64,000 nt of DNA, from contig JALEJS010000034.1 in assembly GCA_022769545.1 (NCBI GenBank), positions 1 through 64,000 of the forward strand, given 5' to 3'. The notes below the pieces were generated by a model, which saw only the letters and a program-made list of their open reading frames with translations, had not been told where the DNA came from and did no database searches. Origin of the DNA: Blautia sp. Its GTDB lineage: Bacteria; Bacillota; Clostridia; Lachnospirales; Lachnospiraceae. Positions 20,977 through 48,302 of this stretch are shown here, in pieces. Numbering within the stretch: the first letter of the stretch is position 1; every line of letters starts with the position of its first letter. Both the position numbers and the translations under genes were made by a program.

Positions 20977-20989
20977 TCTCTCGCCCTCC

Positions 20990-21793: not shown

Positions 21794-21877
21794 CTTTTTC
21801 TCCCTGTCTTCTTAACGAAACGGCTGCGACTGTCTCTGATACAGCCGCACCAGATCCTCATGGTTTCCTATACACTT

Positions 21878-25715: not shown

Positions 25716-25744
25716 TTGACATTTCCCCCTTGACATTATACAAT
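25716..25744 (+). promoter_or_regulatory. Promoter of the PfkB-SIS-phosphorylase-deaminase operon
   Basis: TTGACA is followed after 17 bases by TACAAT. The GntR-regulon operator begins 11 bases downstream of the -10, across the likely start of transcription. Confidence 0.75.
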
Positions 25745-25755
25745 TTTATTAAAGG

Positions 25756-25768
25756 TTAGACGTACTAC
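25756..25768 (+). promoter_or_regulatory. Operator A of the GntR regulon
   Basis: TTAGACGTACTAC, identical over 13 bases to operator B and sharing the core GACGTAC with operators C and D. Its position overlapping the transcription start fits repression. Confidence 0.75.
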
Positions 25769-25798: not shown

Positions 25799-26719
25799 AT
25801 GACACAATCCGTTGATTATTACGTCCTGACACAGCTGCTTCTGGACGATATCTATTTTCCCACCGGCGAAAGCAAACTGAATCAGCTGGGCGGTGGGACC
25901 TACACCGTTGCCGGAATGCGCATATGGTCTGATCGGGTAGGCTTCTGCTGTGCACCCGGATGCGATTATGAAGGGAACTATGATAAATGGTTTCTGGACA
26001 ACCAGATCTGCATTTCCGGAGGCCGCAGAGAGAAGAACTGTACCCATGCGCGTCTGAATTATTTTCCGGACGGAGAGCGGGAGGAAATTCTCCTTCCCGG
26101 CTGCGCCACACACAGAGAATCCCAGCCCCTGGTGTCGGAAATCCCTCCGGAATACCGTGACTGCCGCGGCATGTATTTCTTTAAGGACTGTGAACAGCCC
26201 TTCTGGGATGAATTGCTGCCATTTCTGACGCATGGTTCTGCCATTTCCTGCTGGGAGATTTTCGGTGCATCCGCCTGTCCTCAGAACCGGGATTTCATCG
26301 GGGATGTACTGCACCACATTGACCTGTTTTCCCTGAATCTGACGGAAGGAAGACGCCTTACCGGGCTCTCGGAGCCTCTGGATATTGTGAAGGCCCTCCG
26401 GGATATGAATGCCGGAAATTTCATCTTTCGTATGGGGGCCAACGGAGCGATCGCAGCTTCTCCTCAGAAATTGTATCATATCCCTGCCGTTGCAACAAAC
26501 GTCGTTGATGTCACAGGCGGCGGGAACTCTTCCACCGGCGGATTTACCGTAGGCTTCTGCGAGACAGACGGCGATATTCTGGAAGCCGGTTTATGTGCGG
26601 CTGTCGCTTCATCCTTTATTATCGAACAATACGGTGTACCCGCTAACATAGATGATCATCTGATGCAGCAGGCACGTCAGAGACGTGACGCACTCAGAAC
26701 ACTTGTAAAACCATTGTGA
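25799..26719 (+). CDS. PfkB-fold protein with atypical GGGN catalytic motif
   Basis: A 306-residue member of the ribokinase/PfkB superfamily. The C-terminal signature, normally DTxGAGD with Asp as catalytic base, reads DVTGGGNSSTGGF, so the base is replaced by Asn. The N-terminal glycine pair is present (LGGGTYTVAG). From memory, the GGGN form also occurs in MAK32-like eukaryotic relatives; whether such proteins phosphorylate anything is unclear to me. It may be a sugar-binding sensor or a kinase with altered chemistry. The ATG follows AGGAAAGGAG. It is the first gene of a GntR-controlled operon with SIS, phosphorylase and deaminase genes. Confidence 0.82.
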   Translation: MTQSVDYYVLTQLLLDDIYFPTGESKLNQLGGGTYTVAGMRIWSDRVGFCCAPGCDYEGNYDKWFLDNQICISGGRREKNCTHARLNYFPDGEREEILLPGCATHRESQPLVSEIPPEYRDCRGMYFFKDCEQPFWDELLPFLTHGSAISCWEIFGASACPQNRDFIGDVLHHIDLFSLNLTEGRRLTGLSEPLDIVKALRDMNAGNFIFRMGANGAIAASPQKLYHIPAVATNVVDVTGGGNSSTGGFTVGFCETDGDILEAGLCAAVASSFIIEQYGVPANIDDHLMQQARQRRDALRTLVKPL

Positions 26720-26734
26720 CAGGAGGTAATACCC

Positions 26735-27862
26735 ATGGCAGAAAATCTTTATCTGAAACATATTGAAAGTATTCCACATATGGTGGAACAGATTTTTCCG
26801 GCACTGAATCAGGAAGCGCTCCGACTGACTGCGGAAGTCGCTGACTGGCCGCTGACGGCAGTCTATCTTTACGGAAGCGGCGATTCTCTTGCCGCAGCCA
26901 CCGGTGCCACCGGCGCCTTTATGGAGCTGTGTCATCTTCCGTGCTTTGCACTTACATCCATGCAGGCCTCCCGCTACGCTCCCGGCTACTGTATGCCCGA
27001 ACCCAAAACCGTCCTGACCATCGGTCTTAGCAATTCCGGCAGGGTTGCCCGTGGTCTGGAAGCCACCACTGCACTGGCGAATGCAGGCTACTGTCCGATT
27101 CTCATAACTTCCAACCCGGACAGCCCCGGCGGAAAAGCTGCCGGAAAAGTATTTCATGCCTTTGTTCCGCCCTTTGATCCGGTTCCGATTCCCGGAGTGC
27201 GCGGCTACGTCACCGCGCAGCTGTCGCTTTATCTCTTTGCCGTTCATCTTGCTTTTGCCAGAAATCAGCTGACCGAAGCTGCACGGGATGAACTGCTGGA
27301 CACACTGAAAAACACCGGTCAGCTGCTCCGGACTTCCCTGGACGATAACCGTCAGAAGCTTCAGGCTTTCGGTGAGCTGTGCGCCCGCGAAAAGCGTGTG
27401 GAATTCCTGTCCGCAGGTCCCTGTCGTGCTTCTGCTGATTTTGGTATGGCAAAGACGCTGGAAGCTACCGGCTACACAGCACTCAGTCCGGAGCTGGAGG
27501 AATTCTCACACATGAACTTTTTCTCCCTGGAGCCGGAGCATATCCCAACTGTGATCGTATGCCCGGAATCCTCACGCTGCCTTGTCCGCAGCCGGGAGCT
27601 GGAAGAGTCCATGCGTTTTCAGGGACGGCCCTGTCTGATCATGACAGACGGTGCTTCCTTCCTCGCAGACGAAGCCCACACCATACGCGTACCGGTTCCA
27701 CAGCGTGAAATGTTTGCCCCACTTGTCTTCTCTTTCCTGACCGCTCTTCTGACGGCATACATGCCGCTGGAGGAAGGCGACGACTACATGCACGGTCACC
27801 GCGGTCCATTCCACGAAGAAGACTTTCCGACCATTATCACCAGCAAGCTGGTATTTGATTAG
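26735..27862 (+). CDS. Double SIS-domain sugar isomerase/deaminase-like protein
   Basis: A 375-residue protein with two SIS (phosphosugar-binding) domains. The first, about residues 40-160, has YLYGSGDSLAAA and IGLSNSGRVARG; the second, about 215-360, has VEFLSAGPCRASADFG and a run of conserved E residues (SPELEEFSHMNFF). Such proteins bind or isomerise phosphosugars, as in GlmS or FrlB/AgaS, but no glutamine amidotransferase domain is present. It lies 15 bases after the PfkB gene, with AGGAGG at its start. In context it probably handles the sugar moiety of the regulon's substrate. Confidence 0.85.
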   Translation: MAENLYLKHIESIPHMVEQIFPALNQEALRLTAEVADWPLTAVYLYGSGDSLAAATGATGAFMELCHLPCFALTSMQASRYAPGYCMPEPKTVLTIGLSNSGRVARGLEATTALANAGYCPILITSNPDSPGGKAAGKVFHAFVPPFDPVPIPGVRGYVTAQLSLYLFAVHLAFARNQLTEAARDELLDTLKNTGQLLRTSLDDNRQKLQAFGELCAREKRVEFLSAGPCRASADFGMAKTLEATGYTALSPELEEFSHMNFFSLEPEHIPTVIVCPESSRCLVRSRELEESMRFQGRPCLIMTDGASFLADEAHTIRVPVPQREMFAPLVFSFLTALLTAYMPLEEGDDYMHGHRGPFHEEDFPTIITSKLVFD

Positions 27863-27877
27863 AAAAGGAGGCTTTTT

Positions 27878-28768
27878 ATGAATTGCTTTGATAAAATCAT
27901 CAGCCAATACGACTATTCTGACCGCATGAAGCCCGGCGGCTTTGTCATCGACGGCAAACCGGCGCTCACTCAGATCGATCCGGAGCTTGTCGGAGATTAC
28001 GTCATCATGGTGGTGCGTGATCCCCTGCTTGTCTACGGCGGCGACCCTGCCGAGGTTCTCTCCGAACGTCTTGAAAACCGCGTTCTGGCCGGAAAATCCG
28101 GAATGTTTACCACCTACAGCGGCTATTATAAAGGCGCACACATCAGCATCGTTTCCGGCGGCAGCGGCAGTCCGGAAGCCGAACTGATTCTGGTGGAATT
28201 TATGCATTACACCAAGGCCAGCACGTTCATCCGTCTCGGAGGAGCGGCCGGCGTTCACGAAGACGTCCATTCCGGTGATGTGGTCATCGCCAACGGTGTG
28301 GTAAGAGACGAAGGCATGAGCCAGGCTTATGTTACCCCGACCTACCCGGCTTCCTGCAGCTACGATCTGGTAGCCGCACTGGCAAAGGCAGCCGATGACC
28401 GGAACTATTCCTATCACATCGGCATCGGACGCTCCCAGGACAGCGAGCATGTCAGCTGCGGACGTCCGTCTGTGGGCGGCTATTTCCAGCCAAGACATGC
28501 GGAAATCATCGATTATTACAACCGCGCGCGGGTGATGTACTGGGATCGTGAATCTTCCGGTATTGTTACGCTCTGCAACCTTTTCGGCCGCAGAGGCGGC
28601 GCCGTTGTTTCCGTAGACAACAACCTGGTTACCGGAGAATCCTTCTCCGCCGGCGACGGCCAGGATCACGCCATCGACATTGCCTTTGACGGTCTGGCAA
28701 ACCTTCACAAAATGGATGAGGAAGCAAAAAAACAGGGGAAACGTTACTGGGTTCCCCGTCTGGACTGA
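27878..28768 (+). CDS. Nucleoside phosphorylase of the PNP/UDP family
   Basis: A 296-residue phosphorylase-family-1 protein, nearest in appearance to uridine phosphorylase. It shows the phosphate-binding region SGGSGSPEAEL, the core FIRLGGAAGVHEDVHSGDVVIANGVVRDEG, and a substrate-loop segment. The usual ribose-contacting MExE is represented by YWDRESSG, so the glutamate is kept but the methionines are not. It would cleave an N-glycosidic bond with phosphate to give a free base and a sugar 1-phosphate. The ATG follows AAAAGGAGG. Its place before an 8-oxoguanine-deaminase-like gene suggests a purine-like base. Confidence 0.88.
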   Translation: MNCFDKIISQYDYSDRMKPGGFVIDGKPALTQIDPELVGDYVIMVVRDPLLVYGGDPAEVLSERLENRVLAGKSGMFTTYSGYYKGAHISIVSGGSGSPEAELILVEFMHYTKASTFIRLGGAAGVHEDVHSGDVVIANGVVRDEGMSQAYVTPTYPASCSYDLVAALAKAADDRNYSYHIGIGRSQDSEHVSCGRPSVGGYFQPRHAEIIDYYNRARVMYWDRESSGIVTLCNLFGRRGGAVVSVDNNLVTGESFSAGDGQDHAIDIAFDGLANLHKMDEEAKKQGKRYWVPRLD

Positions 28769-28844
28769 CCCCTTATTTCAAAAATCAGGAGCCCCAAACA
28801 ACAGCAGAATCACACAACGGACTTTCAAAAAGGAGGGCTGACTT

Positions 28845-30203
28845 ATGAGTACTTTATTAATCAAAAACATCCAGGCTCTGGTATCCTGCGACAGCAGGGA
28901 TCAGGTTTACACAGACACAAATCTTTTCTGCAAAGACGGTATCATTGTCTCTATCGGCGATGAAGCCCCGCCTGCAGATCAGGTGATCGACGGAACCGGA
29001 ATGCTGTGCTATCCGGGACTGGTAAACACGCACCATCATCTCTATCAGGTATTTTCCCGAAATCTTCCACAAGTGCAGAATCTTGAGCTGTTTGACTGGC
29101 TCAGGACCCTGTATGAGGTCTGGAAAATGCTGAACGAGGATACCATCCGTCTCTCATCGCTGACCGGTATGGGAGAACTGATGAAAAACGGATGCACAAC
29201 TGTTTTTGACCACCATTATGTATTTCCCAATCATTGTGGAGATCTGATCGGTGCACAGTGGGATGCTGCCAGTCAGCTTGGTGTACGGATGCACTTTTCC
29301 AGAGGCAGCATGGACCGTTCCAAAAAGGACGGCGGACTGCCGCCAGACTCTGTCGTACAGACTGTGGACGAGATCATGAAAGACAGTATTCAGCTCATTG
29401 AGCGCTACCAGGATTCCTCCTTCCAGTCCATGCACCGGATCGCACTGGCGCCCTGCTCTCCGTTTTCTGTTTCCGCAGACCTTTTGCGGGAAAGTGCTCT
29501 TCTGGCACGCCAGTACCATGTCCGTCTGCACACGCATCTGTGCGAAACGCTGGACGAAGAACGTTTTATGCTGGAAACCACAGGGCTGCGTCCGCTGGCT
29601 TATATGGAACAGCTTGGATGGACCGGTGATGACGTATGGTTTGCACACGGCATTCACTTCAACGATGACGAGCTGAATCTTCTGGCACAGACACAGACCT
29701 GCGTCTGCCACTGTCCCATCTCCAACATGAAGCTCTCCTCCGGCATTGCCCGTATCCCGGAAATGCTTTCCCTCGGCGTTCCTGTCGGGCTTGGTGTTGA
29801 CGGCAGCGCAAGCAATGACGGATCCAATCTTCTGGAAGAGATGAGAGTATGCTTCCTTCTGCACAGACTGAATTCCAGTGATTGTGCTCCTTCCGGCTAT
29901 GATGTTCTGAAAATGGCCACCATGGGAAGTGCACGCCTTCTGGGCCGTCAGGATGAAATCGGCAGTCTGGAAGCCGGAAAATGTGCTGATCTTTTCCTGG
30001 TTCGAAGCAATCGTCTGGAACTGGTTGGTGCATGCCGCGATCCGAAATCGGTTCTTGCAACAGTCGGGCTGAAGGGAAGCGTGGATTATACCATCATCAA
30101 CGGAAAGATTGTCGTAGAACACGGTGCACTCACTTCCGTGGATGAAGAAAAACTGTCTTATGAGGCAGAACAGCACATCAATCAGTATCTCAAGGATCTT
30201 TGA
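28845..30203 (+). CDS. Amidohydrolase of the 8-oxoguanine deaminase type
   Basis: A 452-residue member of the ATZ/TRZ amidohydrolases. Metal ligands are seen in VNTHHHLYQ, HTHLCET, FAHGIHF and GVDGSASNDGSNL. The string THHHLYQVFSRNLP and the GSASNDGSNL loop resemble bacterial 8-oxoguanine deaminases, which convert 8-oxoguanine to urate and ammonia. Hydroxy-s-triazine or isoxanthopterin deaminases are close alternatives. It is the last gene of the operon, 76 bases after the phosphorylase, and ends before a bidirectional terminator. Confidence 0.82.
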   Translation: MSTLLIKNIQALVSCDSRDQVYTDTNLFCKDGIIVSIGDEAPPADQVIDGTGMLCYPGLVNTHHHLYQVFSRNLPQVQNLELFDWLRTLYEVWKMLNEDTIRLSSLTGMGELMKNGCTTVFDHHYVFPNHCGDLIGAQWDAASQLGVRMHFSRGSMDRSKKDGGLPPDSVVQTVDEIMKDSIQLIERYQDSSFQSMHRIALAPCSPFSVSADLLRESALLARQYHVRLHTHLCETLDEERFMLETTGLRPLAYMEQLGWTGDDVWFAHGIHFNDDELNLLAQTQTCVCHCPISNMKLSSGIARIPEMLSLGVPVGLGVDGSASNDGSNLLEEMRVCFLLHRLNSSDCAPSGYDVLKMATMGSARLLGRQDEIGSLEAGKCADLFLVRSNRLELVGACRDPKSVLATVGLKGSVDYTIINGKIVVEHGALTSVDEEKLSYEAEQHINQYLKDL

Positions 30204-30292
30204 CCGATCTTTCCTGCCCTCTCATTTTGCCCTCTGCACAAACTGCAGCGGGGCAAATGATGATAAGCGGATCACCTCCGCACTTTATGGTA

Positions 30293-30340
30293 CAAAAAAC
30301 CAGGCTCAGCCCTGAAAACAGGGTAAGCCTGGTTTTTTGT
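30293..30340. terminator. Bidirectional terminator between convergent regulon operons
   Basis: ACCAGGCT pairs with AGCCTGGT, with an inner CCCTG/CAGGG stem, flanked by AAAAAA and TTTTTT. It serves both the deaminase operon (plus) and the creatininase operon (minus). Confidence 0.9.
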
Positions 30341-30381
30341 ATCTTGTTATTTGTATTTTGTATCAGACCGGATTGCCGGAA

Positions 30382-31131
30382 TCAGTCACACAGCTCCTCC
30401 AGAGAATTCAGCTGATCGATCACGCACTGCAGGATCAGCTCAGTCAGTTTTTCTCCCTTTTCCACGGATGCCAGATGAGGCGCTCCCACGATGCCATTCG
30501 GATCCACTTCTGTCGTAAACCAGGAATCCCTGCGTCTGGGCAGTCTCTCCACACGTCCGGAAAAAGCAGAAAGCTCTTCCATATGTACCAGCTCCGGATA
30601 CTCGTAAAGCATCTGTGAGGTTTCATCCTCTCCTGCATGCACTTCCAGCTCCGGCGCTGTTTCCAGCACACTTCGCGCGTAATTATTGAATATGGAATGG
30701 CGGGTATCCACCACATACACATCCAGTCCGTAATTCCGCTTCCACTCCTGTGCAAGGCCATGCAGGAACGGCTTATTTCCTCCATGACTGTTCAGGATGA
30801 GCAGCTTTTTCCAGCCATGCTGCTTCAGGCAGTTCAGAACATCCTCCACAATCGCCTTAATCGTTGAGGAACGCAGAGTAATTGTACCAGACAGATCCAT
30901 ATGTTCCGGACTCAGTCCATAATGAATCGGCGGAAGCACATAGACCTCCGGTTTCACTCTCTCATCCTTTGTCAGACGCCGTACAACATACTCGATGATC
31001 AGATCATCGGTACCTACCGGCATATGAGGTCCATGCTGCTCGATCGCTCCGATGGGAAGCATGGCATATATTTCATCTTTATTCAGCTCACTGTGTTTTT
31101 TCCAGCTTAAATCACGAAAAAAATGTATCAT
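30382..31131 (-). CDS. Creatininase-family amidohydrolase
   Basis: A 249-residue protein of the creatinine amidohydrolase/MftE/ArfB family, which hydrolyses cyclic amides or formamides using two metal ions. Metal ligands are intact: Glu and His in GAIEQHGPHMPVGTDD, His in NSHGGNK, and Glu in HAGEDETSQML. It follows the enamidase-like gene by 12 bases and shares its operator. The substrate is unknown; family members act on creatinine, formamidopyrimidine nucleotides or peptides, so a ring-opening or deformylation step is plausible here. Confidence 0.87.
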   Translation of the reverse strand: MIHFFRDLSWKKHSELNKDEIYAMLPIGAIEQHGPHMPVGTDDLIIEYVVRRLTKDERVKPEVYVLPPIHYGLSPEHMDLSGTITLRSSTIKAIVEDVLNCLKQHGWKKLLILNSHGGNKPFLHGLAQEWKRNYGLDVYVVDTRHSIFNNYARSVLETAPELEVHAGEDETSQMLYEYPELVHMEELSAFSGRVERLPRRRDSWFTTEVDPNGIVGAPHLASVEKGEKLTELILQCVIDQLNSLEELCD

Positions 31132-31143
31132 TTCTGATTCCTC

Positions 31144-32421
31144 TTATTTATTTGCCTTGAAATGAGTCTGTGCGCTCATTCCTTCGTAATGTCTTCCAAC
31201 CTGCGGCGGGAAGAACAGATGCTCTGTGATACCGGAAACAAAGTATGGCTCTCCATTGATCTTGCAGGTACGTGCTGTCGGTCTGGAGTCATGTCCACGG
31301 AATGCAATGATACGTCCGTCAACGATCACAAGAGAGTTTCCAAACGGATCACCCTGCTCGATTGCTTTCAGTGCATCCGTTCCGCAGGATCCCGGAGGAC
31401 AGTCAATGACCTGAAGGTCTGCCTCTCGGCCGATTTCAATCTTACCGGTATTCAGACCGTACAGATCTGCGGTATTTCCGGTTGCCATCGCAATACATTT
31501 TTCTGCCGGAATGTCATTCAGTGCAGAAGCTTTTACAATACAGCGGTTCATTGCACCTGGCATGGATGCCTGTCCGGTAGGAGAATCGCTGCCCATAACC
31601 AGACGATGCAGCTGATTGGTCTTATCCATATGGCGAAGCATTTTATTAAAGTTTACAAAGTTTCCGTTTACAACAAGCTCCAGCGGAATATCGCTCTCAT
31701 CCATCAGTCTCTGAATATGTGAGAAATCAACACCTGTGGAACCGCCGTTGGTATGTGCCACCTTATTGGGTCTTAACTTCAGAATTTCCTCAGAAGTTAC
31801 CCAGGAAGATCCCGGAATAGAAGGCGGTGCAAGGTGTACCGAGAAGAAGAAATCATACTTCCGAGCCCACTCAAGCATTGGAGCAACCTCATCCGGATCA
31901 CACAGACCGCCGCCGCCGATTTCTGCGATCAGCCATACGCCGGCATCATGCATCTCTTTAAAGTCCTGCTCTGTGAGACCATGTACCAGAACAAGTGCTC
32001 CTCCGTGGAATTTCAGACCGCCGCCCGGACGGAAACGGTCAAATACACGCTTGGAGAGAATTGCCGCTGCCTTACATCCGATCGCATCATCGTAAAAGCG
32101 TGGCCAGCCCGGTCCCTGCTCTCCTTCGGAAACCATGGATGTGGTTCCATAGTACAGCGCATCCGAATAGCAGCCAACTGCGCCGCGCTGCGGTGCATAA
32201 TCATCCAGTGTATTATGAATATGACAATCGATAAAGCCCGGGCAGACAATCTGTCCGTCCACATCCACAACGGTATCGATACCGCTCAGATCCAGGTCTT
32301 TTTCATAGCCGATACCTGCGATCAGCCCATCTCTCACAACAATGGTATCACCCGGGATGATTCCCTTTGTGATATCACCGCTGACGATCTTGTCAATGTT
32401 TTTTAAAATAATATCATTCAT
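31144..32421 (-). CDS. Enamidase-like cyclic amidohydrolase
   Basis: A 425-residue amidohydrolase that reads like Eubacterium barkeri enamidase, the ring-opening enzyme of nicotinate fermentation. It shows NIDKIVSGDITKGI, the metal pair in DCHIHNTLDDYAPQ, GLTEQDFKEMHDAGVWLIAE with the bridging glutamate typical of enamidase, histidines in FSVHLAP and KVAHTNGG, and the aspartate in GSDSPTG. The ATG follows AAAGGAGGAAGC. It opens the minus-strand unit under operator B, before the creatininase. No other nicotinate-pathway genes are present, so the true substrate is probably another N-heterocycle. Confidence 0.87.
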   Translation of the reverse strand: MNDIILKNIDKIVSGDITKGIIPGDTIVVRDGLIAGIGYEKDLDLSGIDTVVDVDGQIVCPGFIDCHIHNTLDDYAPQRGAVGCYSDALYYGTTSMVSEGEQGPGWPRFYDDAIGCKAAAILSKRVFDRFRPGGGLKFHGGALVLVHGLTEQDFKEMHDAGVWLIAEIGGGGLCDPDEVAPMLEWARKYDFFFSVHLAPPSIPGSSWVTSEEILKLRPNKVAHTNGGSTGVDFSHIQRLMDESDIPLELVVNGNFVNFNKMLRHMDKTNQLHRLVMGSDSPTGQASMPGAMNRCIVKASALNDIPAEKCIAMATGNTADLYGLNTGKIEIGREADLQVIDCPPGSCGTDALKAIEQGDPFGNSLVIVDGRIIAFRGHDSRPTARTCKINGEPYFVSGITEHLFFPPQVGRHYEGMSAQTHFKANK

Positions 32422-32442
32422 TTCGCTTCCTCCTTTTCAGTT

Positions 32443-32460
32443 ATACGTTAGACGTACTAC
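32443..32460 (-). promoter_or_regulatory. Operator B of the GntR regulon
   Basis: The site contains TTAGACGTACTAC, identical to operator A. It lies between the enamidase-like gene and its probable promoter (TTGCAA at 32501-32506, 17 bases, TAGTAT at 32478-32483, minus strand), in the region shared with the divergent gntR gene. Confidence 0.75.
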
Positions 32461-32477
32461 GGTCTTCCTCTGTTTCT

Positions 32478-32506
32478 ATACTAACATATCCCTGCCGCAT
32501 TTGCAA
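32478..32506 (-). promoter_or_regulatory. Promoter of the enamidase-creatininase unit
   Basis: TTGCAA and TAGTAT separated by 17 bases on the minus strand; operator B starts 17 bases downstream. A weaker match than the other three regulon promoters. Confidence 0.55.
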
Positions 32507-32570
32507 TTGCTTTTCCCTCCCCGGTCTGAGAATTTGTCCTGAAACAAAAATCGCTTGTCTTTTACGAATT

Positions 32571-32598
32571 CAGGTATTATTATATTTATTAATACTGG
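32571..32598 (+). promoter_or_regulatory. Imperfect palindrome upstream of gntR
   Basis: GTATTA and TAATAC face each other across an AT-rich centre within the likely gntR promoter. It does not contain the GACGTAC core, so autoregulation through it is only a possibility. Confidence 0.35.
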
Positions 32599-32639
32599 TA
32601 AAATATAACACAAAGCAAGAACAAGGAGCACTCTCAATC

Positions 32640-33380
32640 ATGAATAAGCAACCCATTAAAAAACGGCTGGTAAAAAGCAAGACTCTCTCCATGCAGGTTT
32701 ATGACATCCTCTGTCAGAGCATCCTGAAAATGAAGCCCAATCAGAACAAGCTTCCATCCGAAGAAGAACTGGCCAGGCAGCTTGGCGTAAGCCGTGCCAC
32801 CATTCGTGAAGCACTGAAGCTTTTGTCCATCAAACGGGCAATTTCTTCCATTCACGGACGGGGAACCTTTGCTCATCCTTCTGTCCTGAAGCTGAAAAAC
32901 CGCATTGATCAGGACAATGATTTCGGTCAGATGATCAAACAGCACTATGGGAACGTTCAGATCGACGTTGCATGGAATGAAGAAGAGTCCGCAGATTCTC
33001 TGTATGACAAATGGTTCCCGGATATGCTCTCGGTAAAGCTCTGCCTGAACTATTCCGCAGACCAGCAGAAACGGCTTTTTACCCGCTATCACTTTCCAAG
33101 AGATTTTTTCACACAACCACTTCCTGAGCAGCTGAAAATTGCCAGTCTTCCTCATCTGAGCCATCTTTACATGGCCGAGGACATCGACTACTGCGCAATG
33201 GAATGCCGTGTCAAAATAGACTCTGAAGCCTGCGAACAGCTGGATCTCCCCCAGGGAACTCCCCTGATGTGCTGGGATGAAGTCATCTACGATGTGGGGG
33301 ACCGTTCGGTCGGAACCGGCGAAGTGTTTGTTCACCCGGAAAACATGGTCATGACCATGGTCGCACGTCTCGAATACTGA
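32640..33380 (+). CDS. GntR-family (HutC/UTRA-type) transcriptional regulator
   Basis: A 246-residue regulator. The N-terminal winged helix-turn-helix reads LPSEEELARQLGVSRATIREALKLL and GRGTFAHP, typical of GntR. The C-terminal 150 residues, with the final strand pattern GTGEVFVHPENMVMTMVARL, fit the UTRA effector domain, which binds a small sugar or amine ligand. The ATG follows AAGGAG. It is divergent from the enamidase-like gene and lies among four units that carry the same GACGTAC site, so I infer that it represses them until a ligand from the pathway binds. Confidence 0.9.
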   Translation: MNKQPIKKRLVKSKTLSMQVYDILCQSILKMKPNQNKLPSEEELARQLGVSRATIREALKLLSIKRAISSIHGRGTFAHPSVLKLKNRIDQDNDFGQMIKQHYGNVQIDVAWNEEESADSLYDKWFPDMLSVKLCLNYSADQQKRLFTRYHFPRDFFTQPLPEQLKIASLPHLSHLYMAEDIDYCAMECRVKIDSEACEQLDLPQGTPLMCWDEVIYDVGDRSVGTGEVFVHPENMVMTMVARLEY

Positions 33381-33412
33381 TTCATTCTGCAGCAACAAGC
33401 AGACTTTCCATG

Positions 33413-33502
33413 CAGGGGCTGATGCAAAATATCGATCTGCCAGTGTTCAACCGGAATGCTTTGACTGGTTACGGTATTTTACAACAGCCCCTGTGTTTTT
33501 TG
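33413..33502 (+). terminator. Long structured terminator after gntR
   Basis: CAGGGGCTG (33413-33421) pairs with CAGCCCCTG (33485-33493), followed by TGTTTTTTG. Inside are further nested pairs, AAAATA/TATTTT and CCAGT/ACTGG, so the whole 80-base span folds into one interrupted stem. This is much longer than an ordinary terminator. Confidence 0.65.
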
Positions 33503-33534
33503 TCTTACATCATTTCCATCTTCAAACAGGCAGA

Positions 33535-34617
33535 TCAGCCCTGTATATCTACGTTTTCTCCTGTCTGTGCATCAAAGAACACACAGTTTTCAAGATCCAC
33601 TGCCAGCGCAATTTCCGTACCCACATCATAGCGTACCGTTCTGGACACACGGCTGCAATACTGTTTTTTGTTCAGCATGAAATAGATCAGTGTCTCTGCT
33701 CCCAGATTTTCGATAAGAGAAACCTTCACCGGCATGATGAATTTCTTATCTCCCTGGTGAATGTTCATCTGCTCCGGTCTCACTCCAACGAAATATTTTC
33801 CGTTCTTCAGTGATTTCATCCGCTCTGTCAGAACATCCGAAGAAACATCAAATCCTGCAATACTGCATTTCTCATCCCGGATTTCCATCTCGAAGAAGTT
33901 GATGGAAGGTGTTCCCAGAAATCCTGCAACAAACTGATTTGCCGGCCGCTCATACAGATCCATCGGTGTTCCGATCTGCTGGATCCGTCCTTCATTTAAG
34001 ATGGCGATCCGGTCTCCCAGCGTCATTGCCTCCTCCTGATCATGTGTAACGATTACAGTCGTGATCTTCAGCTTTCTCTGAAGCTCCTTGATCTCCACAC
34101 GAACCTGACGGCGCAGCTTCGCATCCAGATTGGAAAGCGGTTCATCCAGAAGCATCAGTTTTGCACGGATGGCAACAACTCTGGCAATTGCCACACGCTG
34201 CTGCTGTCCTCCGGAAAGCTGGTTCGGATAACGCTTTGCATAGGGCAGCATATCCACAACATTCAGCGCTTCTTCCACACGGGCTTTCCGCTCCTCTGCC
34301 GGGAGCTTGCGCATCTTCAGACCGAACTCCACATTCTGCCATACTGTCATATGCGGGAACAGAGCATAGTTCTGAAATACGACACCGATATTTCTCTTAT
34401 GTGCCTCGAGATCCAGAATACTTTCTCCATCGATGCACACATTTCCACCGTTTGCTTCAATGAAACCTGCGACAATTCGAAGTATGGTTGTCTTACCGGA
34501 ACCGCTGGGTCCCAGAAGTGCTACCATCTCACCGTCATTTACTGTAATATTGGTGTCCTTTAACACCTGATTTGACTTATATGCTTTTGATAAATTTTTA
34601 ATTTCCAATGTAGCCAC
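33535..34617 (-). CDS. PotA-like ABC transporter ATP-binding protein
   Basis: A 360-residue ATPase of the spermidine/putrescine-iron class. It has Walker A GPSGSGKTT, the Q-loop region VFQNYALFPHMTV, the signature LSGGQQQRVAIARV, Walker B LMLLDEPLSNLD, the switch histidine in VTHDQ, and a C-terminal TOBE domain. The start is GTG. It is the last gene of a four-gene importer whose binding protein is transcribed first from operator C. The TOBE domain suggests regulation by substrate or partner, but I cannot name the ligand. Confidence 0.93.
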   Translation of the reverse strand: MATLEIKNLSKAYKSNQVLKDTNITVNDGEMVALLGPSGSGKTTILRIVAGFIEANGGNVCIDGESILDLEAHKRNIGVVFQNYALFPHMTVWQNVEFGLKMRKLPAEERKARVEEALNVVDMLPYAKRYPNQLSGGQQQRVAIARVVAIRAKLMLLDEPLSNLDAKLRRQVRVEIKELQRKLKITTVIVTHDQEEAMTLGDRIAILNEGRIQQIGTPMDLYERPANQFVAGFLGTPSINFFEMEIRDEKCSIAGFDVSSDVLTERMKSLKNGKYFVGVRPEQMNIHQGDKKFIMPVKVSLIENLGAETLIYFMLNKKQYCSRVSRTVRYDVGTEIALAVDLENCVFFDAQTGENVDIQG

Positions 34618-34636
34618 AGTTCTTTACCGTCCCTTT

Positions 34637-35434
34637 CTAAAAATATTTTGACCAGTGTGCAAATTTTTCCGCCAGAATCGATATAATCAGTACAACCATA
34701 ATAATAATGGTGGAATATGCCAGTACCATCGGGTTCAGTCCCTCTGTTACCATGGAGGAGTATACCCGGACAGGGAACGTGATCATATTGCTTGAACTGA
34801 TGAACAATGTGATAATCAGTTCGGAAAAAGACAACATAAATCCAAACATGGAGGCTACAATAATGCCCGGCGCAATCTGCGGCAGTGTAACATAAAGAAA
34901 CGCCTTTGCCGGTGTGGCGCCCAGACTGTTCGCCGCATCCACCAGACCGTAATCAAATTCCGCAAGGCAGGAGCCGACAACTCTCATATAATATGGTGTC
35001 ACGATCACCACATGAGCCAGCACAAGTGTCCAGAAGTTGCCGCGGATTCCAAGCTTTGCCAGCCAGAGCATCAGGCCGACGCCAAGGGCAATCGCCGGAA
35101 GAAACAGCGGTGCCATAAACAGTGTCTGCACGGATTTCACAAGCTTTCTGCTTCCCTTTGTGAGGGCAAAGCATGCCGGAATACACAGAACATCTGCCAC
35201 GATCATGGTTGTACAGGCAATTTTCAGGCTGGCTGCCAGCGATTTGATATGTTCTCTGTTGGAAAATGCTTCCTTATACCAGTGCAGGCTGAGCTTGCTC
35301 GGCGGAAACTCAAAATATCCCGCGTCACTGAAGGATGCACCTACCACTGCGATCATGGGTGATACCAGAAACAGAAGAATTAAAATTGCCACAAAGGCAA
35401 GAAGAAATCGGGAAATCAGTTGTTTACGTTTCAC
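34637..35434 (-). CDS. PotC-like ABC transporter permease
   Basis: A 265-residue inner-membrane permease with about six helices. The BPD_transp_1 coupling loop reads LVDAANSLGATPAKAFLYVTLPQI. The GTG start at 35434 follows AGGAGGCCTGAAC and lies two bases after the stop of the partner permease, so the two are tightly coupled. It forms the translocation pathway with the PotB-like subunit and moves the GntR-regulon substrate into the cell. Confidence 0.92.
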   Translation of the reverse strand: MKRKQLISRFLLAFVAILILLFLVSPMIAVVGASFSDAGYFEFPPSKLSLHWYKEAFSNREHIKSLAASLKIACTTMIVADVLCIPACFALTKGSRKLVKSVQTLFMAPLFLPAIALGVGLMLWLAKLGIRGNFWTLVLAHVVIVTPYYMRVVGSCLAEFDYGLVDAANSLGATPAKAFLYVTLPQIAPGIIVASMFGFMLSFSELIITLFISSSNMITFPVRVYSSMVTEGLNPMVLAYSTIIIMVVLIISILAEKFAHWSKYF

Positions 35435-35436
35435 GT

Positions 35437-36297
35437 TCAGGCCTCCTGTCTCTTTTTCATATGTTTTGGAACCACATTTGCAACACAGAATACCACCAGT
35501 ACCAGCGCAATCAGGATCATGGCAATCGCAGATGCAAACGGCCAGTTATAAAGTGCCATCGCCTGCTGATAGATACTTGTTCCGATCACGGATACCTTGC
35601 CGCGGCCCAGAAGCAGCGGTGTGGTATAGGAATTCAGGCAGCATCCGAACACCAGGACAAAGCCGGAAATGATTCCGTTTTTGCTCAGCGGAAGCGTCAC
35701 ACGGATAAAGCGCTGGAATCCATTGGCGCCCAGATTATCTGCTGCCTCCAGAACATTCTCCGGAATCGCCTGTATCACGGTCAGAATGGGCAGTATCATA
35801 TAGGGCAGGAATCCCTGTGTCAGACCGATCAGCACACCGCTTTCTTTCCCCAGGAATTCAATCGGTTCATTAATAATCCCCATTGCCAGCAGAGCATTGT
35901 TGATCGGACCGTAGCTTGTCAGAATGCCATAAAGGCCAAGGGTCTGTACCATAACGCCTGCTACCAGCGGCAGAATTACGATTACCAGAAGAATTGTTTT
36001 CTTATATTTCTTTGCTTTCGAAATATAATATGCCACCGGATATCCCAAAACAGCACAGATAATCGCTGTCAGAAAGCTCAGACGAATGGTACGTCCTACC
36101 ACACGCGGATAAAAGCTGTCTGCAAAAAATTTCTGATACGCGTCAATTGTGTATGGTGTGCTCGGGATAACCTGACCGGATTTGTATGTCAGGAAACTGT
36201 AATAGAGCAGCACAAGAAACGGTATGATAAAAAGAATTACGAAAACGGCTGTCAGGGGAACAATCATGGCATTTGCACGATTTACAGATTTTTTCAC
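35437..36297 (-). CDS. PotB-like ABC transporter permease
   Basis: A 286-residue permease with an N-terminal anchor helix (MIVPLTAVFVILFIIPFLVLL) and five more membrane helices. The EAA coupling loop reads VLEAADNLGANGFQRFIRVTLP. The start is GTG after GGGAGGG. A strong hairpin lies between this gene and the upstream binding-protein gene, which would lower permease levels relative to the binding protein, as commonly seen in ABC importer operons. Confidence 0.92.
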   Translation of the reverse strand: MKKSVNRANAMIVPLTAVFVILFIIPFLVLLYYSFLTYKSGQVIPSTPYTIDAYQKFFADSFYPRVVGRTIRLSFLTAIICAVLGYPVAYYISKAKKYKKTILLVIVILPLVAGVMVQTLGLYGILTSYGPINNALLAMGIINEPIEFLGKESGVLIGLTQGFLPYMILPILTVIQAIPENVLEAADNLGANGFQRFIRVTLPLSKNGIISGFVLVFGCCLNSYTTPLLLGRGKVSVIGTSIYQQAMALYNWPFASAIAMILIALVLVVFCVANVVPKHMKKRQEA

Positions 36298-36340
36298 TGT
36301 GATCCCTCCCTGATCTCTCTTATCAAAAAATCGCTGTAAT

Positions 36341-36385
36341 GCAGCGCCATTATGTATGGTCTGTAAGCCTACACAATGGCGCTGC
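36341..36385 (-). terminator. Intercistronic stem-loop between binding protein and permease genes
   Basis: GCAGCGCCATT and AATGGCGCTGC form an 11-bp perfect stem with a 23-base loop. No immediate U-tract follows on the minus strand, so it probably stabilises the upstream message or attenuates read-through. Confidence 0.7.
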
Positions 36386-36412
36386 CCTTTACAACGACTT
36401 TGTTATAATTTA

Positions 36413-37456
36413 TTAATTATTCTCAATCAGTCTGTTATACTGGTCGGTCCAGTCGCTCTCACGTTCCAGGATATAATCCCAGTCAAGAGAAACCAGTTTG
36501 TCAACGTCATCACCGTAAACAAGCTTCTTAGCGACATCTTCACCCACTACTACATCCTTGTTACATGGAGAGAAGAATATTTTTTCTGCATATGCGGTCT
36601 GGGTATCAACACCGATACAACGGTTTACAAATTCTTTTGCCAGCGCTTCGTGTGCAGTATTTTTTGCAATAACAATGGTATCCTTTGCAAGAACGGAACC
36701 CGGATCGCTCGGATATACGAATTCACACGGGAAGCCCTGCTCGATATAGTCATTGCTGTAGCTGTTGAAGATAACTGCAGCCTTAACAGTACCCTGTTTC
36801 AGTTCCAGGAACAGCTCGTCCAGATCGTTGAAGAACAGCGGGAACGGTCCAAGTTCTGCGATCTTCGCAAAAATTTCTTCTTCCTGTGTTTCCAGATCCA
36901 GTCCCCATGCCTGTGCGGTAATGTCTACAAATGCATCGTCCTCGAAGCTCGGGAAAGTGGAAAGTGCAACTTTTCCTTTCAGATCTTCACGCCACAGATC
37001 CTTCCAGGATGTGATCGGCTCTGTAACCAGCTCGTTGTTGTAACAGATTCCAAGACCCATGATGGACATACCGTAGCCACCGGTCTGAGCGAAATCATAA
37101 AGAGATGCCACGTTGCTAAGGCTGGTATCAACCTCCTGTGCCACGCCGTCATCAATGGCCTGTTTGGATTCGTAAATGTTCAGGAAAAGAACGTCCATGG
37201 ACGGGTTGTCAACCTCTGCATACATTTTTGCTTTTCTCTCGCTGGTTCCCCCCAGAACAAGATCGATCGTGCAGCCGTATTCTTCTTCCATAGGATCTAC
37301 GACACTCTCGCGAAGTACAGATTCAATTGTACCTCCCCAAACACCAACAACCAATGTTTCATCCTTGAAATCATCCGTTGTTTCTGCCATTGCACATACT
37401 GGCAGTGAACATGCCATGGTTGCGGAAAGCAACAGGCTCAGAAACAGTTTTTTCAT
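36413..37456 (-). CDS. PotD-like extracellular solute-binding protein
   Basis: A 347-residue binding protein, first gene of the importer. The N-terminus MKKLFLSLLLSATMACSLPVCAMA is a signal sequence, probably cut after AMA; a clear lipobox is missing, although two cysteines are near. The mature part resembles spermidine/putrescine-type proteins (VVGVWGGTIESVLRE, MDVLFLN, ITSWKDLWREDLKGKV). The start at 37456 follows AAGGAGGAAAG. It is under promoter and operator C. The ligand need not be a polyamine, as this family also binds many other cations and organic compounds. Confidence 0.9.
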   Translation of the reverse strand: MKKLFLSLLLSATMACSLPVCAMAETTDDFKDETLVVGVWGGTIESVLRESVVDPMEEEYGCTIDLVLGGTSERKAKMYAEVDNPSMDVLFLNIYESKQAIDDGVAQEVDTSLSNVASLYDFAQTGGYGMSIMGLGICYNNELVTEPITSWKDLWREDLKGKVALSTFPSFEDDAFVDITAQAWGLDLETQEEEIFAKIAELGPFPLFFNDLDELFLELKQGTVKAAVIFNSYSNDYIEQGFPCEFVYPSDPGSVLAKDTIVIAKNTAHEALAKEFVNRCIGVDTQTAYAEKIFFSPCNKDVVVGEDVAKKLVYGDDVDKLVSLDWDYILERESDWTDQYNRLIENN

Positions 37457-37544
37457 ATTCTTTCCTCCTTCTGTAAGAAATGTAAGGTGATGTGGCCGCA
37501 AATGCGTACCCGCTTTGATACCGACAGTACTCCTGCCTTTAATA

Positions 37545-37559
37545 GGTACGACGTACGTC
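37545..37559 (-). promoter_or_regulatory. Operator C of the GntR regulon
   Basis: GGTACGACGTACGTC contains the near-perfect palindrome GTACG-A-CGTAC and the common core GACGTAC. It begins 8 bases downstream of the -10 of the importer promoter, across the transcription start. Confidence 0.75.
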
Positions 37560-37567
37560 ATGTTTTC

Positions 37568-37596
37568 ATATTATCACAGGAACAGTGACGTGTCAA
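37568..37596 (-). promoter_or_regulatory. Promoter of the ABC importer operon
   Basis: TTGACA, 17 bases, TAATAT on the minus strand, about 110 bases upstream of the binding-protein start. Confidence 0.75.
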
Positions 37597-37611
37597 TAAA
37601 GCCAAAGCTGT

Positions 37612-37669
37612 TTCAAAAAAAAATAAAGCCAAAGATAATTTTCGGTAAAATCAAATTATCTCTGGCTTT
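37612..37669 (-). terminator. Terminator of the cupin-kinase operon
   Basis: A 17-bp stem with one mismatch (arms 37625-37641 and 37653-37669) is followed on the minus strand by a run of nine T. It insulates the importer promoter from the upstream operon. Confidence 0.85.
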
Positions 37670-37675
37670 TCTTTA

Positions 37676-38152
37676 CTATTTATCCCATGTCACCTTTACT
37701 GCCCCGTTGTCCAGCAAAGTAAAGCTGTCCGGATCTTCTCCCGTTTTTCCGAGAATGTAATAATCTACCGGTTTTTCGGTTCCCCGGCAGATGTCATACC
37801 AGATTCCCGGCCGAATCAAAAAGATTTCCCCGGGTTCCAGTACAAATGCCTCTACCTTTTCTGTCTGCGGAATGTTTTCCGTCTCTTCTGCTACCGCTAC
37901 GATCATCGGATGCTCTGTACAGATCAGCAGACGCTGGCTATCCATGGTACGCGTCATCGCTTCCAGCTCATATGGCTGTACCGAATCGCTGTGACAGGCC
38001 GTCACTCTGGCCTCATGGCTCATGCAGAGTCCTTCTGTCATCCAGCATTCCCATCCGTCTCCCGCGAAGCACTCCGAATCCGTCAGACGTTCAAATGCTC
38101 CGTAGGGACTGCACGTATGCACTTCCGCTTTTTTTGCCTTTATCTCTCTCAT
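37676..38152 (-). CDS. Ureidoglycolate-lyase-like cupin protein, copy 2
   Basis: A 158-residue cupin-fold protein distantly like ureidoglycolate lyase (AllA). Parallels are the opening SPYGAFERL, the strand MIVAVAEE, and FVLEPGEIFLIRPGIWYDI near residue 120, where AllA has its metal-site and closing strands. It is a diverged paralogue of the next gene upstream; the histidine after the tryptophan in that copy (IWHDA) is tyrosine here. It starts 17 bases after that gene. It may be a partner subunit rather than an enzyme. Confidence 0.65.
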   Translation of the reverse strand: MREIKAKKAEVHTCSPYGAFERLTDSECFAGDGWECWMTEGLCMSHEARVTACHSDSVQPYELEAMTRTMDSQRLLICTEHPMIVAVAEETENIPQTEKVEAFVLEPGEIFLIRPGIWYDICRGTEKPVDYYILGKTGEDPDSFTLLDNGAVKVTWDK

Positions 38153-38169
38153 AATCTGCTCCTTTCCGT

Positions 38170-38652
38170 TTACTCCAGTTCGATTTTTACAGGTTCCGGA
38201 AGAACCGGCAGCCATGCCGTCTCACTCGGTTCCCCATTTGTATAGGAAAGGAAAAAATACATGGTTTTCCGTTCGGCGCTGTGACAGGCATCATGCCAGA
38301 TTCCCCGTTTCAGAACAACCACATCTCCGGGAGAAAGCAGGAAAGAAGCCACATCCTCCTCTCTGGGATTGCCCCAGGGATCACTGTCCGCCACACTGAG
38401 AATGATCGGTGCACTTCCCGCAAACTGCACCTCCTCCGAAGAAAGGTGCCGTTCCATACTGTCCACCAGAAACGTTTTTCCGTTGTCACACTGGGTAATT
38501 CCAAATTTCAGCGGACGCTCCACCACCACATCCTTTGTGGTAAACATCCGGTACCAGTCACCGCTGCATCTCTCTCCCTGTGTCACATGATAGTAACTGC
38601 CATACGGGCGAAAATTTTCTTCATTTACAGGTACTACACATCCTTTTTTCAT
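38170..38652 (-). CDS. Ureidoglycolate-lyase-like cupin protein, copy 1
   Basis: A 160-residue cupin-fold protein related to ureidoglycolate lyase/hydrolase (AllA) and similar small proteins. It has ENFRPYGSYYHV at the start, FLVDSMERHLSSEEVQF, APIILSVADSD, FLLSPGDVVVLKRGIWHDACH and a final strand. AllA converts ureidoglycolate to glyoxylate and urea at the end of purine breakdown, so a related hydrolytic or lyase step is possible. Its ATG overlaps the stop of the PfkB kinase gene by four bases (ATGA), showing translational coupling. Confidence 0.72.
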   Translation of the reverse strand: MKKGCVVPVNEENFRPYGSYYHVTQGERCSGDWYRMFTTKDVVVERPLKFGITQCDNGKTFLVDSMERHLSSEEVQFAGSAPIILSVADSDPWGNPREEDVASFLLSPGDVVVLKRGIWHDACHSAERKTMYFFLSYTNGEPSETAWLPVLPEPVKIELE

Positions 38653-39587
38653 GACTTTGCCTCTCCCCTTTCCTGTCTGAATAATTCCATCCTTTTTTTC
38701 ATATCTTCCATAGACGCAATTCCGCCTCTCGGCCCATGTACGGTCACCGCATGCGCCCCCGCTGCATTGGACAGCTCTGCCGCGTCTGCCAGTTCCATTC
38801 CCGACAGCCAGCATGCAGTAAAGGTACAGTTAAAGGTATCGCCGGCTCCTGTGGGATCCACCACTTTCACAGGATTGCCCGGTATCCGGACTTCTTTTTC
38901 ACGGCTGCGGCAATAGCAGCCGTCTGCTCCCAGCGTGATCACCACTGCTTCCGCCTGATGGCAGAACAGTTCTTCCATACACTCTCCGTCTGTCCGCCCA
39001 CTCTTCATTTTTTTCCAGCCTTCCTCATTAAAAAACAGCAGACTGGCATATTGGAAAAGCGGATCCTCCCAGCTGTCAAAGGTGGAAGTCTCCAGATCAA
39101 ACACCAGCTTTACACCGTTTTCTGTCAGCGACTTCGCCAGTTCCTCCCAGCCCTCCAGCCGGTGAAACTCCATCATGGAGGTATAAATGCATTCGGCTCC
39201 CATAAGAAGCTCCCGGAGGGGTTCTTCCACAGGATAGCGGATCCCGCTGGAATCGGACACAAGAATTGTCCTCTCAGCAGGTGTATTGACGATTATGCAT
39301 TTGAGATCCGGAACCCCGTCATCCGTGATCGCATAGCTCAGATCCAGCTTCCACTTTTCCAGATCCTCCCGGATGATCCGGCTGTTATTTCCGGAATTCA
39401 ATGCGGTAATCATGTATGTCTTTTTTCCAAGTCCTGCAAGCACACAGGCCGCATTCGGAATCATGCCGCCCACTTTACTTCCTGTACAGCGCACAATTCC
39501 TTTCTCTCCTTCCGCGACCCACTGATCTGCTGCATAATACTCATCCATGCAGGCCACACCCAACGCAACTACATATTTTTCTTCCAT
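38649..39587 (-). CDS. PfkB-family carbohydrate kinase (canonical)
   Basis: A 312-residue ribokinase-like kinase with intact catalytic signature VDPTGAGDTFNCTF, the N-terminal GSKVGGMIPNAAC region, and ATP-binding VITLGADGCY. It would phosphorylate a sugar or nucleoside-derived ribose using ATP. It is the first gene of a three-gene unit under operator D, ahead of the two cupin proteins. Unlike the PfkB-fold protein at 25799, it retains the catalytic aspartate, so the two proteins probably do different jobs. Confidence 0.9.
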   Translation of the reverse strand: MEEKYVVALGVACMDEYYAADQWVAEGEKGIVRCTGSKVGGMIPNAACVLAGLGKKTYMITALNSGNNSRIIREDLEKWKLDLSYAITDDGVPDLKCIIVNTPAERTILVSDSSGIRYPVEEPLRELLMGAECIYTSMMEFHRLEGWEELAKSLTENGVKLVFDLETSTFDSWEDPLFQYASLLFFNEEGWKKMKSGRTDGECMEELFCHQAEAVVITLGADGCYCRSREKEVRIPGNPVKVVDPTGAGDTFNCTFTACWLSGMELADAAELSNAAGAHAVTVHGPRGGIASMEDMKKRMELFRQERGEAKS

Positions 39588-39616: not shown

Positions 39617-39631
39617 CGTACGACGTACTAC
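39617..39631 (-). promoter_or_regulatory. Operator D of the GntR regulon
   Basis: CGTACGACGTACTAC combines the palindrome GTACG-A-CGTAC seen in site C with the TAC tail seen in sites A and B. It begins 6 bases downstream of the -10. Confidence 0.75.
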
Positions 39632-39637
39632 AGTCTG

Positions 39638-39666
39638 ATTGTAGTCAATTTCCGAAGACTTGTCAA
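39638..39666 (-). promoter_or_regulatory. Promoter of the kinase-cupin unit
   Basis: TTGACA, 17 bases, TACAAT on the minus strand, directly ahead of operator D and about 50 bases from the kinase start. Confidence 0.8.
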
Positions 39667-47774: not shown

Positions 47775-48302
47775 GTGAAGCAGCAGCAAACATTCGCAGA
47801 TATTGAATACTCCAACCGCAAGCATATAACCAAACGGGAAGAATTTCTTAACGCTATGGATCAGCTCGTCCCATGGTCAGAGTGTCTGGCTGCCATTCGC
47901 CCGTTTTATCCATCCGGAAAACGCGGCCGCAGGCCAAGAGGTATGGAAACCATGCTCCGCATGTATCTGCTGCAAAAATGGTTTCAGCTCTCGGACGAAC
48001 GAATCGAGGACGCCGTATATGACAGCTATGCCATGCGCTCTTTTCTGCATCTGGATTTTCTGCATGAGCAGGTACCGGATTCCACCACTTTGCTGAAATT
48101 CCGGCATCTTCTCGAAGACAAAGGGCTGGAGCAGCAAATATCTGCAAAGATTCACACTTGCCTGGAGAAAGCCGGACTCACACTTCGCAGGGGAACGGTT
48201 ATCGATGCCTCGCTGACCGCTATTCCGGCACCTCCTAAAAAACAGCACACACATCGAAAATCCACAGACGATTCGTTTGACCAGTTACAGTTTCATTTTT
48301 AG
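47775..48302 (+). pseudogene. IS5-family transposase, 3'-truncated remnant
   Basis: A 175-codon frame with a GTG start after AAAGAGGTGG. It matches the N-terminal half of IS5-type DDE transposases: QQTFADIEYSNRK, FYPSGKRGRRPRGMETMLRMYLL in parts, DAVYDSYAMRSFL, and PDSTTLLKFRHLLE. It ends soon after GTVIDASLTAIP, where the first catalytic aspartate lies, so the remaining catalytic residues are missing. I could not find a downstream half or terminal inverted repeats. It is surely non-functional. Confidence 0.85.

Follow-up and report, generated by a model that had tools for sequence, protein, structure and literature searches.

Excerpts of PMC12507026 and PMC12990295 describe a reductive uric-acid pathway that comprises XdhD, YgfK, SsnA (its marker), HyuA, YgeW, YgeY and YgeX. 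According to partial texts on deaminases, the 8-oxoguanine deaminase family also accepts isocytosine (PMC6186785, PMC12828455) and is able to release alkylamines, the guanine-deaminase machinery involves Gln, Glu, His and Asp residues, and the N2,N2-dimethylguanine hydrolases (NdmH) carry CQNN residues and are described with a C-Q-x-x-N motif (PMC13054789 for these last three points). In this work we analysed a stretch of 64,000 nucleotides of a Blautia sp. assembly (the window; contig JALEJS010000034.1), in which genes for an ABC importer, sugar-side enzymes, a deaminase of the 8-oxoguanine deaminase family, an enamidase-like amidohydrolase (Enam) and a creatininase-family amidohydrolase (Creat) surround a GntR-family regulator gene. 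We give about an even chance to the proposal that this is a dedicated GntR-controlled regulon for the uptake and breakdown of a sugar-linked guanine-like (2-amino-oxo) base, with delivery of the product to the urate pathway.

Results

The cluster consists of three operons, PfkB1-SIS-NP-deaminase on the plus strand and Enam-Creat and PfkB2-UGL2-UGL1-PotD-PotB-PotC-PotA on the minus strand, with the GntR gene (plus strand) in mid-cluster, divergent from Enam (Table 1). The GntR protein matches its family profile at 54 bits. A 14-base site, GTNNGACGTACTAC, is present upstream of both PfkB1 and PfkB2 and in the gap that separates Enam from GntR. Because this putative operator is found three times in the window with at most one mismatch, compared with 0.06 expected from shuffles, and because the 2.96-Mb assembly has only three matches to a slightly looser form, GTNNGACGTACNAC, one at each operon promoter, the gene set is, on the evidence of these sites, a single regulon, as the initial annotation had asserted, with the GntR protein as its putative regulator. 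A control, GTNNGACGTACNAC read backwards, occurs six times in the assembly; the number alone is therefore unremarkable, and it is the placement that is remarkable. At PfkB1 and PfkB2 the operator is immediately downstream of the two promoter-like sites that score best in the stretch, which is the placement expected for repression; promoter-like sites overall are not above chance (20 found versus 17.5 expected). In other genomes, GTNNGACGTACNAC is found twice in G306, before PfkB1 and Enam, once in Anaerotruncus colihominis, before Enam, and not in G741. A still looser form, GTNNNACGTNNNAC, was scanned for in the loci named here: it precedes both Enam and PfkB1 in L119/L026, L027, L030 and L044, precedes Enam in L029, additionally lies within a gene in L030 and L031, and is absent from L033, L036, L038 and L040.

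Relatives of Enam are encoded in 47 loci in a scan of 84,980 species genomes, made with two short patterns that may have missed some. At least 70% identity to Enam was found in 18 loci, or 19 including the window, labelled Bacillota, Chloroflexota, Spirochaetota and Fusobacteriota (record titles Oscillospiraceae, Blautia, Anaerotruncus, Peptococcaceae, other Bacillota, Leptolinea, Treponema, Spirochaetia and Fusobacteria), most of them metagenome assemblies, whose taxon labels may err. An archaeal locus encodes a relative at 45% identity, and the true enamidases of nicotinate fermenters are at about 42% or below. Enam is rare in the sampled groups: with its own genome counted in both, matches came from 3 of 64 genomes of the genus and 2 of 391 of the class, and the second match in the class is an enamidase like that of Eubacterium barkeri. 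The deaminase lies beside Enam in 17 of the 19 loci (all but L032 and L033), as does Creat (all but L033 and L039), L032 and L039 stopping near a contig end. The two partners in L035 are the most distant, at 48% and 27%, and the full set is present in a cultured strain, A. colihominis DSM 17241 (L044). The conservation across genomes on which the initial annotation had staked its proposal is thus observed, and it shows that both Enam and Creat matter.

The set is modular, a constant base-side core being accompanied by varying importers and sugar modules. A PotABCD-like importer is present in 4 of the 19 loci (window, L119/L026, L027 and L038), a Bmp/PnrA-like importer in 8 (L033-L037 and L040-L042; the L041 Bmp protein scores 202.6 bits) and an Rbs-like importer in 3 (L029, L030 and L044); L031 has an importer that is, by eye, of the sugar type, and no complete importer was seen in L028, L032 and L039. 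All four PotABCD-like proteins of the window are under the Pot equivalog cut-offs, and their cargo is not assignable from these matches. Five loci (window, L119/L026, L027, L030 and L044) contain the whole sugar side of six genes (NP, PfkB1, SIS, PfkB2, UGL1 and UGL2), whereas L038 has SIS alone; the complete sugar side accompanies five of seven Pot or Rbs loci versus none of eight Bmp loci (Fisher p 0.007). This combination of the core with different importers and sugar modules favours a glycoside cargo for loci of the window type. In several other loci (e.g. L034, L036, L041 and L042) Enam, deaminase and Creat beside one importer make up the entire set. Between the deaminase and Enam of L031 (7280-9276) lie a GFO/IDH/MocA oxidoreductase gene and a xylose-isomerase-like TIM-barrel gene, as if they were an alternative sugar module. 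Three consecutive ADP-ribosylglycohydrolase-like genes lie past the Enam core in L028 (4751-7862), and a Pterin_bind (methyltransferase-type) gene is near Enam in L035 (8432-9322), a Leptolinea assembly.

The deaminase scores 564.6 bits with PRK08203 (8-oxoguanine deaminase), above the curated equivalog cut-off of 532, and its closest solved relatives are 3hpa and 7ww2. The catalytic Gln, Glu, His and Asp are conserved in 16/16 deaminases. Where the C-Q-x-x-N motif is described, 16/16 have CSPFS, as mapped by spacing alone with three residues compared. Of 17 Enam-linked deaminases, 16 group in a single clade (support 0.77), which holds four further sequences, all from genomes with Enam or an enamidase, and the family members found within urate clusters (L116-L118) form a separate clade. 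Judged by these motifs and matches, the enzyme fits a 2-amino-oxo base; this base is likely guanine-like, with 8-oxoguanine as the leading candidate, and the substrate named in the initial annotation, 8-oxoguanosine or a relative, is a candidate cargo. One Enam genome has a cluster (L114, 2353-13831) in which a Bmp importer is encoded together with two relatives of 8-oxoguanine deaminase and with XDH-type genes.

Genomes with Enam are strongly enriched for the marker of the reductive uric-acid pathway. SsnA exceeds its cut-off in 15 of the 18 Enam genomes versus 19 of 366 class genomes (Fisher p about 2e-14, own genome excluded); at E 1e-100 the counts are 16 of 18 and 25 of 366. The p values are a guide only, as the genomes lack independence and come from a wider range of taxa than the class used as background. 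The XDH family is present in 18 of 19 Enam genomes versus 76 of 391 class genomes, and the deaminase, at E 1e-80 and with L037 outside the search, in 15 of 18 versus 12 of 391. The window cluster itself contains none of the ssnA, ygfK, ygeX, ygeY, ygeW and XDH genes. The remark in the initial annotation that ygeX, ygeY, ygfK and xdh are missing is thus true of the window, but the set is encoded elsewhere in the same genome: contig C37 carries, at about 196-217 kb, YgeX, YgeY, YgeW, carbamate kinase, XdhA, XdhB, XdhC, a selenium-dependent XDH, YgfK and SsnA, all above cut-offs, and a D-hydantoinase at 190 kb (190097-191443). The region of C37 from 193 to 230 kb (L123/L124) and the D-hydantoinase gene, all outside the window, together represent most of the anaerobic uric-acid genes.

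Enam matches the E. barkeri enamidase (2vun) over its whole length with 324 bits and 42% identity. Both proteins have the same His/His/Glu/His/His/Asp positions, invariant in 4/4, which we take to be metal ligands. The active-site loops of Enam differ from those of the E. barkeri enzyme and are shared by 17/17 bacterial orthologs in a motif table that left out L037 and L039. None of the genes of the window cluster is a nicotinate gene, in contrast, as judged by eye, with L045. The identification of Enam as a nicotinate enamidase was therefore rejected. Replacement of HyuA by Enam was also rejected, since D-hydantoinase is above cut-off in 17 of 18 Enam genomes (a count with no class background), and so was replacement of YgeY by Creat, since the window's own genome has YgeY. 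Creat is over the Pfam cut-off for creatininase (PF02633, 215.2 bits) and under the equivalog cut-off of TIGR04448 (102.8 bits versus 235). We found no paper whose title or abstract opening combines an enamidase with 8-oxoguanine deaminase, and among the other titles and abstract openings examined none concerned this gene set.

On the sugar side, NP matches PNP_UDP_1 (PF01048) at 79 bits and the uridine phosphorylase model at 126.5 bits, below its curated cut-off of 280.3. Taking the three arginines that presumably bind phosphate in uridine phosphorylase as reference positions, two are lost and one is retained in 9/9 NP sequences, which also have DRES at the place of the ribose motif (9/9); three canonical phosphorylases in the alignment, from the same kind of loci, retain the GDPxR motif. 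The phosphorolysis proposed in the initial annotation is consequently doubtful. A second phosphorylase-fold protein, in L044 (12079-12864) and L029 (8730-9518), likewise lacks the phosphate-site residues. The proposal of two PfkB-fold kinases fares better for one protein than for the other: PfkB2 (136.7 bits) retains the Asp of the GAGD motif, which we take to be the catalytic one, in 7/7, whereas relatives of PfkB1 (58.7 bits, C-terminal half only) have GGGN or GCGN, with Asn for this Asp, in 10/10. PfkB and SIS proteins are known as a pair from fructosamine kinases and deglycases, and there are weak fructoselysine 6-kinase matches. SIS scores 30.0 bits (cut-off 25) and retains Glu and His in its active-site stretch; among solved structures, even its nearest true relatives match weakly (GlmS domain, 21.8 bits). 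The likeness of the UGL pair to ureidoglycolate lyase is marginal, as UGL1 (25.8 bits) is above and UGL2 (22.8 bits) below the PF04115 cut-off of 23. Of 299 genomes of the family, 4 encode an NP relative, the window's own genome among them. Relatives of NP, PfkB1 and SIS lie near ADP-ribosylglycohydrolase, and often nucleoside hydrolase, in five loci (L018-L022) of three other genomes, which argues that the trio is not bound to a guanine-like base. These loci, also near UPF0047 and deoxyribosyltransferase-like genes, form an undescribed cluster of N-glycoside type; no title or abstract opening was found to combine three of ADP-ribosylglycohydrolase, PfkB, nucleoside phosphorylase and SIS domain.

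All genes named in the initial annotation are intact open reading frames, and the ATG start given for the first PfkB gene is correct (Table 1).

Table 1. Genes, putative operators and promoter-like sites of the cluster
Feature	Positions	Strand	Description
Promoter-like site	25716..25744	+	TTGACA-17-TACAAT, 11/12
Putative GntR operator	25755..25768	+	GTTAGACGTACTAC, before PfkB1, 11 bases past -10 box
PfkB1	25799..26719	+	PfkB-fold, GGGN replacing GAGD, doubtful kinase
SIS	26735..27862	+	Sugar-phosphate isomerase/deglycase-fold protein
NP	27878..28768	+	Nucleoside phosphorylase-fold, degraded phosphate site; probably N-glycoside-cleaving enzyme
Deaminase	28845..30203	+	8-oxoguanine deaminase family amidohydrolase
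Creat	30382..31131	-	Creatininase-family amidohydrolase
Enam	31144..32421	-	Enamidase-like amidohydrolase; most conserved member of set
Putative GntR operator	32447..32460	+	GTTAGACGTACTAC, between Enam and GntR
GntR	32640..33380	+	GntR-family regulator
PotA	33535..34617	-	PotA-like ABC ATPase
PotC	34637..35434	-	PotC-like permease
PotB	35437..36297	-	PotB-like permease
PotD	36413..37456	-	PotD-like solute-binding protein, start refined
UGL1	37676..38152	-	Weakly ureidoglycolate-lyase-like (cupin-fold), start refined
UGL2	38170..38652	-	Relative of UGL1, slightly below Pfam cut-off, start refined
PfkB2	38649..39587	-	Ribokinase-like kinase, GAGD motif intact
Putative GntR operator	39618..39631	+	GTACGACGTACTAC, before PfkB2, 7 bases past minus-strand -10 box
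Promoter-like site	39638..39666	-	TTGACA-17-TACAAT, 11/12

A dihydroorotase gene (24263-25525) was rejected as a member of the set: its product is above the cut-off of the ordinary dihydroorotase model, and the gene has no operator site. Elsewhere in the window, EtfA, EtfB and a GlcD-like FAD dehydrogenase are encoded as one run outside the regulon (19969-23290), and a short open reading frame resembles, by eye, a truncated transposase (47775-48302).

Discussion

Family matches support the co-occurrence, proposed at the outset, of an importer, sugar-side enzymes, a deaminase and ring or amide hydrolases. The initial annotation thus stands for the regulon, the combination of enzyme types and the conservation; phosphorolysis and the action of two kinases have become doubtful, and the urate context it gave was incomplete. 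We infer the cargo, the order of reactions and the link to the urate pathway as follows. A glycoside would be imported by the PotABCD-like importer, and the NP/PfkB1/SIS and PfkB2/UGL1/UGL2 groups would release and process its sugar; hydrolysis or some other reaction is more likely here than ordinary phosphorolysis. The deaminase would strip the 2-amino group of the base to leave a urate- or xanthine-type product (in the leading case, urate from 8-oxoguanine), which could enter the reductive uric-acid pathway encoded mostly on another contig, and Enam and Creat would likewise work on the base, with a cyclic amide or amidine as their target. With a guanine-like base that is freed and then deaminated to urate or xanthine, the presence of the deaminase, importers and sugar module can be explained, and so can the association seen at the level of genomes.

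Several observations weigh against this proposal. A deaminase that yields urate or xanthine leaves Enam and Creat without an obvious job; they may act on a modified part of the base, on further oxidised forms, or in a separate route. In G745, Enam and Creat are present but matches to the deaminase, SsnA, D-hydantoinase and XDH are all lacking; G746 combines Enam with a Bmp importer and has no deaminase; and the L035 deaminase lies outside the Enam-linked clade. In the window's own genome, GTNNGACGTACNAC is not found at the urate-pathway genes, XdhD and YgfM of the Escherichia coli pathway were not identified as such, and the XDH adjoining YgfK is above the cut-off of TIGR03311, not that of TIGR03313. 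Finally, the SsnA association may simply mean that both traits suit purine-using anaerobes.

It is possible, but in our view unlikely, that Enam, deaminase and Creat are by themselves a complete route of hydrolysis, with a non-purine 2-amino-oxo heterocycle as substrate, such as an iminohydantoin or a pyrimidine aglycone like divicine or isouramil, which would be deaminated, opened and then hydrolysed at the opened amide, the urate pathway being a mere fellow traveller. The loci in which the three hydrolases and one importer are the whole set agree with such a route, as does the use of isocytosine by the deaminase family in the excerpts cited above, and the exchange of the six sugar genes for the oxidoreductase and TIM-barrel genes in L031 suggests that the sugar may vary. 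However, the strong association with SsnA and XDH argues for a purine, as do the Bmp importers, which by family name are of the purine-nucleoside type, and the more distant deaminases of the same family within urate clusters.

A purine could also be attacked at its imidazole ring first, with Enam opening the five-membered ring, Creat deformylating the resulting formamidopyrimidine and the deaminase removing the pyrimidine 2-amino group. The acceptance of isocytosine described in excerpts of PMC6186785 would suit this last step. The creatininase family includes ArfB, which deformylates precisely this kind of compound, but the match of ArfB to Creat is weak (23.0 bits, far below the ArfB cut-off of 180), and the SsnA link is left unexplained. 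To our knowledge enamidase is known for reduced pyridone rings and not for imidazole rings, and we consider this order of events quite improbable. Just as doubtful is a route that serves oxidised guanine nucleosides in general, in which 8-oxoguanosine would be deaminated towards urate, Creat (as a creatinine-like ring opener) and Enam would take hydantoin-type products of further oxidation, and the ureidoglycolate-lyase-like proteins would act downstream; if true, bacteria would have a system dedicated to damaged nucleic acid from food or from the host, feeding uric-acid fermentation.

The use of plain guanosine or uridine by a redundant set of enzymes would fit the presence of fold families of nucleoside catabolism, but it is very improbable, as NP is far below the uridine phosphorylase cut-off and lacks phosphate-site residues, Enam and Creat are left without a role, and the set is rare in the genus and class. 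Use of Amadori or glycation products, with PfkB and SIS acting as in fructoselysine use and a hydroimidazolone formed by glycation as the base, draws on the known pairing of these proteins, the weak fructoselysine 6-kinase matches and the alkylamine release possible in the deaminase family, but we give it hardly any chance, since the catalytic Asp is missing from PfkB1, neither the nucleoside-type importers nor the association with purines agrees with it, and the NP/PfkB1/SIS trio travels elsewhere with ADP-ribosylglycohydrolase and nucleoside hydrolase genes.

If the base is indeed guanine-like and its product goes to urate, the regulon would add a branch through which a compound, perhaps a modified guanine nucleoside, enters anaerobic purine breakdown in the gut, a process that affects the uric-acid balance of the host. 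Enam, the DRES-type NP, the GGGN PfkB protein and SIS, which stand for four groups of divergent enzymes, gain a shared context that is testable, and the gene set can be tested in a cultured species that has the same genes, A. colihominis.

Compared with described systems, the cluster combines familiar and divergent parts. Enam resembles the enamidase of nicotinate fermentation over its whole length and in its metal-ligand positions, but its active-site loops differ and the cluster lacks nicotinate genes. The deaminase is an 8-oxoguanine deaminase/AtzB cluster protein by score and by catalytic residues, but it belongs to a clade of its own, apart from the urate-cluster deaminases. NP shares the fold family of the NP-I uridine and purine nucleoside phosphorylases without most of their phosphate-binding positions, and with DRES replacing the ribose motif. 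The L018-L022 loci have the same three diverged proteins adjacent or close, whereas no Enam, deaminase core or Creat was seen in the DNA examined there, and their importers differ. Most of the reductive uric-acid pathway, finally, is encoded by this genome, and Enam genomes are enriched for the marker of the pathway, but the pathway genes lie outside the window cluster and do not share the operator of the cluster.

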